Shown here in pieces: positions 22,536 through 26,773 of a stretch of DNA of 35,572 nt (position 1 is its first letter; each line of letters starts with the position of its first letter). A model generated the notes under the pieces. That model was given only the letters and a program-made list of their open reading frames with translations, searched no databases and was not told the origin of the DNA. The position numbers and the translations under genes were made by a program. The DNA is taken from the NCBI GenBank assembly GCA_903889425.1, contig CAISXI010000192.1, positions 1 through 35,572 of the forward strand. Direction: 5' to 3'. This DNA comes from an uncultured Roseiflexaceae bacterium (GTDB lineage: Bacteria > Chloroflexota > Chloroflexia > Chloroflexales > Roseiflexaceae).

Positions 22536-22581
22536 CCAAAAACCGGACATGCACTCGCTTGAGTGCATGTCCGGTTTTTGG
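22536..22581. terminator. Perfect 21-bp hairpin, bidirectional terminator
   Basis: The arms 22536-22556 and 22561-22581 are perfectly complementary with a GCTT loop. The top strand ends in TTTTT before GG, and the bottom strand likewise. It lies between the convergent RidA and DUF2828 genes and should stop both. Confidence 0.9.
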
Positions 22582-22584
22582 TGG

Positions 22585-23991
22585 TTAATCAGCCAACACT
22601 ACATCATAGCGTGGGTCCATGATGACCGACAGCATTAAACTAAGTGGGGTCAACGACTGCACATCAGCAGCCAGTACCCCTTTGAGAATCGCCGGCGAAA
22701 AGCCACTCACGAGCACCGCTCCACTCGTGTGTTGATCCACGGGCGCATTGCCGTAGCTAGCGATATTCCAAAATATCACCGCGGGCATAGCATAGCCCGC
22801 TGCTGCATATTGGCGCGCCATCAGCTGCATGGCATTGTCGTCGTGCGCGACACACGCGTCAAACTGCATGTCCGACAATATCAACAGGTAGCGAGGCATC
22901 TGTTGCGCGGGTACTTGCTGCTCCTGCGCCACTCGCAAGATCTCACGCATGGCAGCATGCAGATTCGTGTTCATTTCCCAATCACTCTTGACCATCTGGT
23001 CTAACTTTTGCACCACATTGCCCTTGAGGTGCAAGAGTTGGGGTTGCGCCGAAAACGTCACAAAGGCGTCTTTGAAGGCACCCTGGTTCTTGTCGGCGAG
23101 GTACAACCCGAGCGACACGGCCACGTCGAGGGCAGTCAGGGCAGGAGTACACTGCGACGTCATCGAGTCCGACACATCGACGAGCGGCAAGATACGGGCA
23201 TCACCTACATAATTGGGCAAGGCATTCCATTGTGCCACCACAAAGTCATGCTCGACGGCATCATACGCGATGTCCGCGCCAATCAACCCCTTCAACACGT
23301 CGTAAGGATAGACTGCACCGGCATTTACCTGCGCTTGGCCTTTTTTGGCCAAAGCCACATAATCGGCATACAGTGGGGTATGGCGATTAAACGCACGTTT
23401 GTAGCGCGCCGCCGCCAATGAAGGCACCTTGGCAAACTCAATGCTATCCCACATACGGGCACACATCTTGGTTTCGACCACTGCGGTCAACTCCACCAAC
23501 AATTTGCGATAGCGCTTGGGACTCAACCCCAAGAAATTACGTAACTTGACCGCCATTTCGCCTTGGCGGGGCATCCATTTGGCACACAAGCCATTGCGCG
23601 CGACCAAGGCTTGGGCAATCAGCCCAAACGCCAATGATTGGAGCGGTCCTGCGACCACCAGCAGGTCATCCCAGCGCCCGACTTCGGGGATTTTGGCGAT
23701 GACAGCCCGCGCAGCCTGGGGATCGTGCACCACAAGGTAGCGCACAATATCGCGAAAAATCTGGCGCTCGCCGGCCCCACCCCGCACGTCACGGGCCCAC
23801 AACGCCACCCGCAACGCCCATTCGCGCTGGGTCGCCAATGCCGCCACAAAACCAGGGATGACGTCTCGCCCCCGTGATGCCCCAATCTGATAAAACAAAT
23901 CGAGTACCGCATGCCCCGAAGATGCCCGTGCCTGCATCCCATTGACCGTACGTGTCGTACGATTGATGACTGCCTGCGTGAAAGTCGTCAT
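22585..23991 (-). CDS. DUF2828-family protein, alpha-helical N-terminus plus vWA (MIDAS) domain
   Basis: This is a 468-residue cytoplasmic-type protein. The N-terminal half is helical and has ARDVRGGAGERQIFRD (66-81) and KWMPR (138-142). The C-terminal half is a von Willebrand A fold with a complete metal site: Asp272-Ser274-Ser276 (DVSDS), Thr342 (NTNLH) and Asp374 (SDMQFD). Segments IFWNIAS and VLVSGFSP (about 407-432) are typical of DUF2828. The overall plan resembles the Ro60/Rsr (TROVE) RNA-binding ring, which also joins helical repeats to a vWA, but the families are different and RNA binding here is inference. The ATG at 23991 has AAAGGAG before it; longer forms would start in the leader. 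A hairpin (24011-24028) lies just upstream. Confidence 0.9.
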   Translation of the reverse strand: MTTFTQAVINRTTRTVNGMQARASSGHAVLDLFYQIGASRGRDVIPGFVAALATQREWALRVALWARDVRGGAGERQIFRDIVRYLVVHDPQAARAVIAKIPEVGRWDDLLVVAGPLQSLAFGLIAQALVARNGLCAKWMPRQGEMAVKLRNFLGLSPKRYRKLLVELTAVVETKMCARMWDSIEFAKVPSLAAARYKRAFNRHTPLYADYVALAKKGQAQVNAGAVYPYDVLKGLIGADIAYDAVEHDFVVAQWNALPNYVGDARILPLVDVSDSMTSQCTPALTALDVAVSLGLYLADKNQGAFKDAFVTFSAQPQLLHLKGNVVQKLDQMVKSDWEMNTNLHAAMREILRVAQEQQVPAQQMPRYLLILSDMQFDACVAHDDNAMQLMARQYAAAGYAMPAVIFWNIASYGNAPVDQHTSGAVLVSGFSPAILKGVLAADVQSLTPLSLMLSVIMDPRYDVVLAD

Positions 23992-24010
23992 TTTTTCTCC
24001 TTTATAAACT

Positions 24011-24028
24011 GCGTGATTGATTACACGC
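24011..24028 (-). promoter_or_regulatory. Small hairpin in the DUF2828 leader
   Basis: GCGTG (24011-24015) and CACGC (24024-24028) pair around an 8-base loop, ending about 20 bases before the start codon at 23991. It may affect access to the ribosome site AAAGGAG. Confidence 0.3.
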
Positions 24029-24132
24029 ATCATCACTTATTGGTGCTAACTGTGGTTTTGCCCGAAAGCAACCTACAATCATGCCAAAAACATATTTCGT
24101 GCCCGACCAAATCGCTGGTGCCCCGCACACAG

Positions 24133-24300
24133 AAAAAAGCACCCATATGTTGGTTTTTTGTTATCATGACTGCGCCGGAGGCGCTCCTATTGTGGATGCT
24201 GTCAATGACCCCAAAATCCCAACATATGGGCTATGGATTTGTCCTACAGGTTACGGAGTGGTAGTTGCAAATGCACATTATAATTTGCTGCACGTAACCT
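24133..24300. ncRNA. Candidate structured RNA: two nested stem-loops next to the DUF2828 gene
   Basis: Stem A pairs CCCATATGTTGG (24142-24153) with CCAACATATGGG (24219-24230), a perfect 12-bp match, with a nested GCGCC/GGCGC hairpin (24172-24184). Stem B pairs AGGTTACG (24248-24255) with CGTAACCT (24293-24300) and holds a nested GCAAAT/ATTTGC hairpin (24267-24288). On the minus strand a T-run (complement of 24133-24138) follows stem A after a few bases, as in a terminator, so an RNA reading toward the DUF2828 gene and ending here is a fair guess. No known RNA family is recognised. Transcription is not shown by the sequence. Confidence 0.4.
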
Positions 24301-24405
24301 AACCATGCGAACGACTATTACCAATTACCAAACGCACCACCGTGATGATGATAATGACCAAAAAATGACCAAAACACCGCATTTCCACACAACGCTAGGG
24401 GTTAC

Positions 24406-24590
24406 AGGTTAAGATGAAATTTCTTCACTTGGTCACCCGCACCAGTGCGCAAACACCAACACAGACACCCCAAGCGGAAATCCATTCACTTGTCCAAAAA
24501 GAGTTCATAACAGACAGGAGCTTTGTCTCGACTACCACAAGGATGCGGTAGTAAACCAGTTTAATTGTTATTAGTTGCGGCACTTAACCT
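24406..24590. ncRNA. Candidate structured RNA closed by an 8-bp helix
   Basis: AGGTTAAG (24406-24413) and CTTAACCT (24583-24590) are perfectly complementary across 169 bases. Inside are AGACA/TGTCT (24512-24528) and ACTACC/GGTAGT (24531-24552) hairpins. The arrangement looks like a multi-branched RNA, but 5- to 8-bp arms also occur by chance. The strand is undecided. Confidence 0.25.
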
Positions 24591-24640
24591 CATTACCAAC
24601 CCTCAGCGTCATGCGGGCAGTGACTACCCCCTGTAGCATA

Positions 24641-24800
24641 AGTGTGTGGTCACACTACTTCCCGCTCGCATCTATTCAATTGTAAAGGTACGTGGCTTAC
24701 GCCATGGGTGCTACCACTTTGCGCACGCAAAGGGCTCGTCCACGAGCAACGCAACAACCAAACCAACCGCTGTCCCACAACCAAAGTGCGCACACGCACT
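24641..24800. repeat. Cluster of four short perfect hairpins
   Basis: AGTGTG/CACACT (24641-24656), CTTTGC/GCAAAG (24717-24732), GCTCG/CGAGC (24734-24747) and AGTGCG/CGCACT (24785-24800) each have a 4-base loop. Four such hairpins in 160 bases without a gene suggest structured RNA or protein-binding sites. Confidence 0.35.
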
Positions 24801-25223
24801 CACTGTCACTGCCAACAAATGCCGACAGGAGCAACAGCGTATCTATCGTGGCGAACCTACGGAAATCAACGCGGACGAACAAAAGAGATTTTTTAATAGC
24901 AGATTTACTAAACTACAACCAACAACATGCATAAGTATATAGAGCATACGTAAGTTTGTCAAGAGTCTATATTATGAAATTTTGATGAGTAGTGCCATAT
25001 CGATATTTTGCCGTATCAATAACTTATATGTTTGTTGTTTATCTCATATATTATTTTATTTTTTGTTATTTTCTACAAAAAAATACCCCCGCGGTGGTGA
25101 ATATACAACCCGAAATCACTGCACGCGTCCCAGCATACAAATGCAGTGGCGTGGCGTCCTATGGAGCACAAGAAGGAACTATACCGTGCCGCTACGGGTA
25201 GGTCTACTAGCGTACACCGACAA

Positions 25224-25232
25224 TGGTATAAT
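25224..25232 (+). promoter_or_regulatory. Extended -10 promoter of gltX
   Basis: TGGTATAAT ends 38 bases before the ATG at 25271. It is identical to the elements at 2796-2804 and, on the minus strand, 29416-29424. There is no clear -35. Confidence 0.65.
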
Positions 25233-25270
25233 TTGGCATAGGAATTGGCATAGTGTGACGAGATGGAACC

Positions 25271-26773
25271 ATGACAGAAATCAAAGGACCGGTGCGCGTG
25301 CGTTTTGCACCCAGCCCGACGGGTTATTTGCATATCGGCGGTGTCCGTACCGCCTTGTTTAATTGGTTGTTTGCTCGGCATTACGGTGGGCAGTTTTTGC
25401 TCCGTATCGAAGACACCGACGAGAAACGCTTCGTCGAAGGTGCCGCCAACGACTTGATGACCTCGATGCGCTGGGTGGGGATTGATTGGGACGAAGGCCC
25501 CGACATCGGCGGCCCCTGTGGCCCCTATGTGCAATCCGAGCGTCACGCCCAAGGCGTCTATCAGCCCTACGCCCAACAATTGCTCGAGGCGGGGTTAGCC
25601 TATATGTCGTTTACCACCGAAGAAGAGCTAGCCGAAATGAAGGCCGTGGCCGAAGCCCGGGGCATCAAAGCATTCCGCTTCCGTGGTCCCGAACGTGATT
25701 GGCCCCTCGCCAAACAACAAGAGCTCGCCGCTACTGGCAAACCGCACACCATCCGCCTCAAGACCCCCACCGATGGCAGCACCCACTTCCACGACATCGT
25801 GCGCGGCGGCGACGACGGGATTCGCATCAACAATGCCGAATTGTACGACATCGTCCTGCTCAAAAAAACCACCATGCCTGTCTATCACATGGCCCATTTG
25901 GTCGACGATCATTTGATGGGCATCACCCATGTGTTGCGGAGCGATGAATGGGTGTCGTCGACACCGTATCACGTGCTCCTGTACCAATACTTTGGCTGGG
26001 AAGCGCCAGCATTCGCCCATTTGCCGCCGATTTTGCGGGCTGACGGCCACGGCAAATTGTCCAAACGCAAAGACGACGTCTCGGCCAATCGTTTTTGGGA
26101 ACGCGGTTATCTGGCCGATGCCATGTTTAATTATTTGACCTTGCAGGGCTGGAGTTTCGACGATCATACCGAGATTATGACCCGTGCCGAAGTAGTCGAA
26201 CGCTTCACCATTGACCGCGTGTTGTCGTCACCTGCCCGTTGGAATCCGGCCAAACTGCTCGACATGAACGGCATCTACATCCGGGCTATGGCGGGTGCCG
26301 ATGTGGCGACGGCAATTACACCGTTTTTGCAAAAAGCAAATCTCGTCCCCACACCCAACGATGACCAGAGTGCCGCCTATGTGGCACGCCTGACGCCGCT
26401 CATCCATGAGCGCCTCAAGGAACTCGGCGAAGCGCCCGAATTACTCGACTTTTTGTTGGCTGATATCGAAACCCCCAGCGCTGAAGCGCTCATCCCCAAA
26501 AAAATGGACGCCGCAAGTACGCATACCGCACTGATCGCAGTCCATGCGTCACTCAGTGCCATCAGCGATTGGGACGGTCAAGAAGCCCAGCTCGAAGCAG
26601 CCCTACGGGCCTTGTGCGAACAATTCGAACTCAAGCCAGGCCAATTGTTTGGTGCCGTGCGGGTCGCGATTAGTAATCGCACCGTAGCCCCACCGTTGTT
26701 CGAGACCCTCACTGCCCTCGGGCGTACCCGGAGCCTCGACCGAATTGCTGTAGCGATTACCGTCGTCGCGTAA
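25271..26773 (+). CDS. gltX: Glutamyl-tRNA synthetase
   Basis: This is a 500-residue class I aminoacyl-tRNA synthetase that charges tRNA-Glu. The ATP-binding HIGH variant is HIGG (21-24) in APSPTGYLHIGG, and the KMSKS loop is KLSKR (262-266). The region 90-130 lacks the Cys residues that hold zinc in the E. coli enzyme (the position reads YMSFTTEEEL), as in several other bacteria. The C-terminal anticodon-binding helical domain spans about 330-495. Length is standard. The ATG follows a short leader from an extended -10. The gene is single, with a strong hairpin terminator behind it. Whether it also charges tRNA-Gln depends on gatCAB elsewhere. Confidence 0.97.
   Translation: MTEIKGPVRVRFAPSPTGYLHIGGVRTALFNWLFARHYGGQFLLRIEDTDEKRFVEGAANDLMTSMRWVGIDWDEGPDIGGPCGPYVQSERHAQGVYQPYAQQLLEAGLAYMSFTTEEELAEMKAVAEARGIKAFRFRGPERDWPLAKQQELAATGKPHTIRLKTPTDGSTHFHDIVRGGDDGIRINNAELYDIVLLKKTTMPVYHMAHLVDDHLMGITHVLRSDEWVSSTPYHVLLYQYFGWEAPAFAHLPPILRADGHGKLSKRKDDVSANRFWERGYLADAMFNYLTLQGWSFDDHTEIMTRAEVVERFTIDRVLSSPARWNPAKLLDMNGIYIRAMAGADVATAITPFLQKANLVPTPNDDQSAAYVARLTPLIHERLKELGEAPELLDFLLADIETPSAEALIPKKMDAASTHTALIAVHASLSAISDWDGQEAQLEAALRALCEQFELKPGQLFGAVRVAISNRTVAPPLFETLTALGRTRSLDRIAVAITVVA

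Follow-up and report, generated by a model that had tools for sequence, protein, structure and literature searches.

A Ro60-like DUF2828 protein and its upstream tract in an uncultured Roseiflexaceae bacterium: a candidate RNA-protein system with relatives in phages

The DUF2828 gene and its upstream tract

We analysed a 35.6-kb stretch of DNA (the window; 35,572 nucleotides) from an uncultured Roseiflexaceae bacterium, whose 3.6-Mb genome of 540 contigs was examined within a set of 11 congeneric whole genomes. A gene of the DUF2828/DUF7788 families lies on the minus strand of the window, with a tract upstream that separates it from gltX, and an earlier note, made from the sequence alone, had proposed that gene and tract form an RNA-protein system like that of Ro60/Rsr and its Y RNAs. 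The features of the locus are these (nt, nucleotides; bp, base pairs):

22585..23991, minus strand: DUF2828/DUF7788 gene for a Ro60-like protein of 468 amino acids (from Pfam, PHROG, alignment and fold match)
24048..24081, minus strand: hairpin GATTGTAGGTTGC/GCAAAACCACAGT, directly upstream of the DUF2828 ribosome-binding site and conserved in three species
24133..24230, minus strand: large hairpin with a 12-bp stem and nested stems, then T6; a possible RNA 3' end or terminator, the latter a putative role
24242..24302, minus strand: short module, GGTTACG (24299-24293) and CGTAACC (24255-24249) with TGCAGCA and CTGT (covariance model R1)
24404..24592, minus strand: long module, GGTTAAG (24589-24583) and CTTAACC (24413-24407) (motif scan)
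24934..24962, minus strand: sigma-70 promoter TTGACA-N17-TATACT, directed toward DUF2828 (read directly from the sequence)
22618..25058, no strand assigned: unit absent as one block from congener G008 (flanks 77-80% identical, a single clean gap)

The listed open reading frame (22585-24036) opens with GTG, and an ATG at 23991, preceded by GGAG, is the likelier start. The protein has a helical N-terminal half and a C-terminal vWA half with a full metal ion-dependent adhesion site (MIDAS); it matches DUF7788 (E=9e-42, over the vWA region) and DUF2828 (E=8e-20) in Pfam, as well as PHROG 850, 'RNA-binding protein' (E=4e-133). The five MIDAS residues named in the earlier note (Asp272, Ser274, Ser276, Thr342 and Asp374) are where it placed them, and all five are invariant in an alignment of 40 sequences. 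Its further suggestion of an overall plan like that of Ro60/Rsr is borne out by structure comparison and by profile alignment. The ten top PDB matches of the AlphaFold model (pLDDT 80) were all Ro60/TROVE structures, aligned over 378-406 residues, nearly the full length (Z 12.8-17.2 (VIA); Foldseek E=1.5e-8), with the Ro60 protein of Thermus phage phiLo at Z 16.3 and the Rsr protein of Deinococcus at Z 12.8 among them; the next group of structures followed at Z 11. The hhalign comparison of the DUF2828 profile with TROVE was colinear (E=1.2e-5, probability 81%). Six DUF2828 proteins compared with Pfam TROVE (PF05731) showed no similarity even with E allowed to reach 10, and a PF05731 search of genome G000 returned nothing. 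As modelled, the DUF2828 protein is of a Ro60/Rsr/TROVE-like fold, though outside the Pfam TROVE family. We also note a strong inverted repeat at 22536-22583, between yjgF and DUF2828, which is probably a terminator shared by both directions.

In a tree of DUF2828 proteins, the three Roseiflexaceae sequences form one clade nested in viral sequences, its exact position being modestly supported, and the bacterial rows are dispersed among phage rows. The simplest reading is that the Roseiflexaceae probably obtained the cassette from a phage, a direction of transfer that we infer.

In two congeners, G009 and G002, DUF2828 occupies the same position (81-87% protein identity), and the tract is conserved in both at ~68% nucleotide identity over 1.2 kb, with many insertions and deletions whose lengths are not multiples of three, a pattern that would be expected of non-coding DNA. 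The promoter, ~950 nt upstream of the DUF2828 ATG, is near the sigma-70 consensus, and its TTGACA and TATACT boxes are identical in G009 and G002. Congener G008 lacks exactly 22618-25058, such that DUF2828 (all except its last 30 nt), the tract and the promoter are gone while the gltX promoter region is retained. A single deletion thus removed the gene, the tract and the promoter together. In another congener, G003, DUF2828 lies elsewhere (L019 746-2146) and is frameshifted as if decaying, and the module upstream of it is degenerate. We found no tRNA gene and no Rfam family in the window tract, Rfam remaining empty even at E 5, and the genome holds the tract only once; being the sole copy, the tract was rejected as a repeat or mobile element.

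Folding of the tract and a module shared with phages

The stems described in the earlier note exist. The perfect 12-bp stem (24142-24153 with 24219-24230) is present and extends to 26-nt arms with 81% complementarity, and the 8-bp stem at 24248-24300 is likewise present and proves to be the DUF2828-linked short module. Compared with dinucleotide shuffles, however, only 24110-24310 folds better than expected, with z -3.4 and -3.7 for its two strands, whereas the rest of the tract is ordinary (mean z about -0.3 and -0.2). Since folding energy is mostly ordinary, the significance of the tract rests on comparative evidence, and folding energy alone was set aside as proof, with only 24000-24300 standing out. 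Covariation among relatives, which the note had offered as a check, was found for the main hairpin, in which five pairs are kept through changes on both sides across three species, but not for the short-module stem, which is invariant. The 12-bp stem belongs to a separate conserved hairpin with compensatory changes, distinct from the module. A consensus fold of the whole tract from the three sequences has 248 pairs, 25 of them with changes on both sides; because 48 pairs are broken in at least one species, this fold is only partly well supported, its best parts being the main hairpin and the long-module region (nine both-sided changes). The hairpin at 24048..24081 could possibly be an autoregulatory element.

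The module is defined by an AG-stem of 6-8 bp with NNCAGCAA (NNCNGCA) on the 5' side, an insert of ~30-250 nt, the complementary strand and CTGT/CUGU. A scan of both strands of the whole window turned up two modules and no more; each lies inside the tract, on the minus strand. The short module was also found by R1, a covariance model built from phage modules alone, whose E-values are rough: in the window R1 matches 24302-24242 (32.4 bits, E=7.9e-6), and in the 11 congeneric genomes it found only this site (E=8e-4 genome-wide) and its counterparts in G009 and G002, such that the short module is the single R1 match in the 3.6-Mb genome. The long module has TGCCGCA after the 5' strand and CTGT after the 3' strand, and its stem is conserved in the congeners; R1 matches its 5' part weakly (14.7 bits), and R2, a model of long phage modules, does not match its insert and re-finds the docking stem only.

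In phages, DUF2828 relatives are common, with more than 570 IMG/VR contigs, mostly beside tRNA arrays (the 80 best are 55-61% identical), and 681 cultured-phage records with a DUF2828/DUF7788 protein, coliphages suited to laboratory work among them. Only eight DUF2828 loci were found in genome contigs, and few Chloroflexota have the gene (3 of 400 genomes). We studied 80 viral loci, picked by similarity to the Chloroflexota protein and including near-duplicates. The fetched sequences hold 634 tRNAs, all on the DUF2828 strand, with at least one tRNA in 67 of the 80 loci, and in many loci a strong promoter and a leader of 250-500 nt lie between the last tRNA and DUF2828. These leaders hold one to several modules: of the 69 loci that offer 500 nt or more of upstream sequence, 56 have at least one module upstream of DUF2828, compared to none in 69 reverse complements, none in 69 gene starts and 4 in 1380 shuffles.

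The arms of the phage modules pair far beyond chance. When the nearest CTGT[TA] was taken without requiring pairing, 25 of 54 distinct arm pairs were fully complementary, compared to a mean of 2.2 and a maximum of 7 in 1000 shuffles. In an alignment of 30 phage sequences, four of the six stem pairs covary, 67 of 179 pair cells are changed on both sides and 99% are paired; the rows of this alignment were chosen for pairing, and the nearest-CTGT[TA] test is the fair one. R1 gave 146 matches, spread over 77 phage loci and without exception on the DUF2828 strand, and it also matched at DUF2828 genes of Endomicrobium, Spirochaetia and Paludibacteraceae and in 10 of 14 whole cultured-phage genomes. 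No R1 match or module was found at 13 TROVE loci of Chloroflexota. A distant Chloroflexota DUF2828 gene (G145, L113 4282-4458), possibly in a prophage, has two modules directly upstream.

Modules also occur away from the gene. Serratia phage BF carries them in a tRNA-bearing region ~200 kb from DUF2828 (L160, 302-307 kb) and Citrobacter phage Ci1 between tRNAs 10 kb from it (L161, 65 kb), and in the Felix-O1-like Escherichia phage wV8 at least four modules, with AGACC-stems, CAGCAA and CTGG, lie between tRNAs just downstream of DUF2828 (L115 4716-5400). Since these modules lie among tRNAs away from DUF2828, they can be free RNAs and not just parts of a leader.

Transcriptomic data exist for one phage with such a locus. 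In Listeria phage CKA15, very abundant unannotated RNAs arise up to 2 kb upstream of the DUF2828 gene CKA15_055, the authors suggested that they are Y RNAs, and the DUF2828 protein itself was found in purified particles (PMC12282133). R1 finds three modules in the leader of CKA15_055. The most transcribed region of this phage (L162, record 26236-26727) was annotated as three short genes without homologues; we found no DUF2828 module in it, and it may be another structured RNA. Since the most active region has no module, the correspondence between the CKA15 RNAs and the module is partial and putative.

tRNA-like inserts and known Ro60 systems

Many phage inserts resemble parts of tRNAs. A hairpin like an anticodon arm (7-nt loop, YU-NNN-R-N) occurs in 23 of 51 short phage modules, compared to a mean of 0.6 and a maximum of 4 in shuffles. 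Among mid-length phage modules, 16 of 38 have a T-loop motif, in several of them with acceptor- and D-arm-like sequence after it; the same order forms the permuted tRNA of YrlA. A strict pattern of a T arm followed by a D arm was found in only two modules because the D-arm pattern is too narrow, and the T-loop count is the better measure. The Rfam model of YrlA (RF02553) matched phage modules below its cut-off of 69 bits (45.1 bits in L122, 36.5 bits in L060) and returned nothing for the window tract, even with E allowed to reach 5. Longer phage modules carry conserved domains of their own: those of 145-185 nt upstream of DUF2828 (L043, L033, L061, L110 and others) have a common folded domain, TGGAGC..TTGAAGGT; another type, of 200-260 nt and likewise upstream of DUF2828, carries GAACCGATATACTGGGGATGGGG. 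No tRNA-like domain is visible in the window tract, and its inserts do not resemble the phage insert types.

The closest known systems are Ro60/Rsr and YrlA. Ro60/Rsr binds a Y RNA on its outer surface and misfolded RNA ends in its ring, and Chen et al. in 2014 are said to have placed Y RNAs near Ro60 in more than 250 bacterial and phage species. The likeness lies in the helical repeats with a MIDAS vWA domain, the RNA genes beside the protein gene, a basal stem motif in each RNA, a permuted tRNA-like domain in some phage RNAs, and, for some phages, an RNA ligase close by; Listeria and Serratia phages have genes for RtcB and RNA ligase in the vicinity. In the window, too, the tract abuts the Ro60-like gene and was lost together with it in G008. 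The systems differ in that DUF2828 and DUF7788 are Pfam families other than TROVE and that the CAGCA/CUGU stem motif is absent beside Chloroflexota TROVE genes. Unlike YrlA, the modules are mostly shorter, arranged in tandem and scattered through tRNA arrays, and many have anticodon arms instead of T and D arms, while no piece of a tRNA can be seen in the putative window RNAs. In two other Chloroflexota loci (L128 and L129), TROVE genes lie beside tRNAs, many of them in L129, without the CAGCA/CTGT module, and L128 has a weak YrlA-like match.

The phage 'Ro-like RNA binding protein' of PHROG 850, a name used in mycobacteriophage annotations, is the same protein family, and the annotations seen name no RNA partner. 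We found no description of the module family in the literature searched. The putative Y RNAs of CKA15 are likewise abundant RNAs upstream of a DUF2828 gene; unlike for the module family, no motif or structure is given for them in the available part of that report (PMC12282133). GOLLD, ROOL and OLE are also long structured non-coding RNAs, some of them near tRNA arrays or in phages (PMC12286853), whereas the window has no Rfam match.

A putative Ro60/Y-RNA-like particle and its alternatives

The earlier proposal of an RNA-protein system is supported by the Ro60 fold, the conserved tract and promoter, their joint loss with the gene, and the match of a phage-derived model; to that proposal our analysis adds the strand, the promoter, the link to phages and the second module. 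From the computed fold homology, conservation, joint loss, motif identity and covariation, we infer transcription of the tract in this bacterium, binding of the RNA and its function, and we consider it likely that the locus encodes a Ro60/Y-RNA-like particle consisting of a DUF2828 ring protein and a cognate non-coding RNA from the tract. The transcript would start near 24927 on the minus strand, carry at least two copies of the module (NNCAGCAA on the 5' side, CUGU on the 3' side) and further conserved hairpins, and either end at the hairpin 24230-24133 or continue into the DUF2828 mRNA. The protein would dock on the module stem, as Ro60 does on the stem of a Y RNA, and the inserts between the stem strands might be domains that are presented, or a scaffold for other RNAs or enzymes. 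Such a particle would probably serve surveillance or repair of tRNA-related RNAs, or act as a decoy, with autoregulation through the leader possible in addition; this purpose seems the likeliest because of the tRNA arrays, tRNA-like phage inserts and RNA ligases nearby.

Several observations weigh against this particle. Among the three Roseiflexaceae the stem of the short module does not vary, and the covariation support for it comes from the phages; there is some redundancy among the viral loci; neither a recognisable piece of tRNA nor an Rfam match was found in the window inserts; four of the 14 cultured phages have no R1 match genome-wide, with looser copies near the gene or the tRNAs in two of them; and the DUF2828 gene of G003 carries a frameshift and has only a degenerate module.

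A special case of the particle, which we raise tentatively, is that mimics of anticodon arms or of permuted T and D arms are displayed as decoys that tie up anticodon nucleases of the host or detect damaged tRNAs, as a phage counter-defence of which the bacterial copy would be a captured version. The anticodon-arm-like hairpins, T-loop motifs and YrlA-like Rfam matches of the phage modules fit such a role, as do the RtcB and RNA ligase genes near the Listeria and Serratia loci and the proposal, put forward as an untested idea, that YrlA competitively inhibits an anticodon nuclease (PMC7790460). It sits less well with the window inserts, which have neither an anticodon arm nor a T arm, and tRNA enzymes or PNPase could be what the mimicry recruits instead.

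A broader reading of the particle is also possible, although we hold it with low confidence. Phages and a few bacteria might carry a ring protein like Ro60 together with modular RNAs, a large and unnamed family that shares a docking stem; each module might display a different piece of tRNA (an anticodon arm, or permuted T and D arms with an acceptor) or another folded domain; and this exchangeable display might sense, decoy or repair the damage done by tRNA-cleaving defences, the window holding a chromosomal copy. If true, it would explain why modules are woven through phage tRNA arrays.

DUF2828/DUF7788, filed as domains of unknown function, gains a candidate RNA partner with a searchable motif, such that its function becomes directly testable. 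This partner ties the question of why phages carry tRNA arrays to Ro60/Y-RNA biology and suggests that the non-tRNA RNAs in them are conserved cargo, and in the bacterium a gene and a non-coding tract are kept and lost as one unit.

More doubtful is the view that the modules are mainly cis-acting leader elements, through which the protein represses its own translation from the 5' untranslated region with no free particle. The last module or hairpin does end shortly before the ribosome-binding site, in the window and in phages, and the promoter reads through into DUF2828. However, the modules inside tRNA arrays of BF, Ci1 and wV8, away from the DUF2828 leader, indicate that they can act in trans, and a separate RNA could terminate at the window hairpin with its T6. 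Autoregulation is compatible with a free RNA.

A very improbable view is that the tract belongs to gltX, as a structured RNA or a regulatory region, or has some other use unrelated to DUF2828. Its location between the two genes and its mostly ordinary folding energy would allow this, but gltX of G008 keeps its own promoter and a leader of ~200 nt without the tract, and the same module is found at DUF2828 genes of unrelated phages and phyla. That the inverted repeats arose by chance or from a mobile-element remnant has next to no likelihood, and for the two modules and the main hairpin the comparison of genomes already contradicts it: although short inverted repeats are common and many of those listed are weak, the tract has no other copy in the genome, and it shows conservation in congeners, compensatory changes and matches to a model built from phages.
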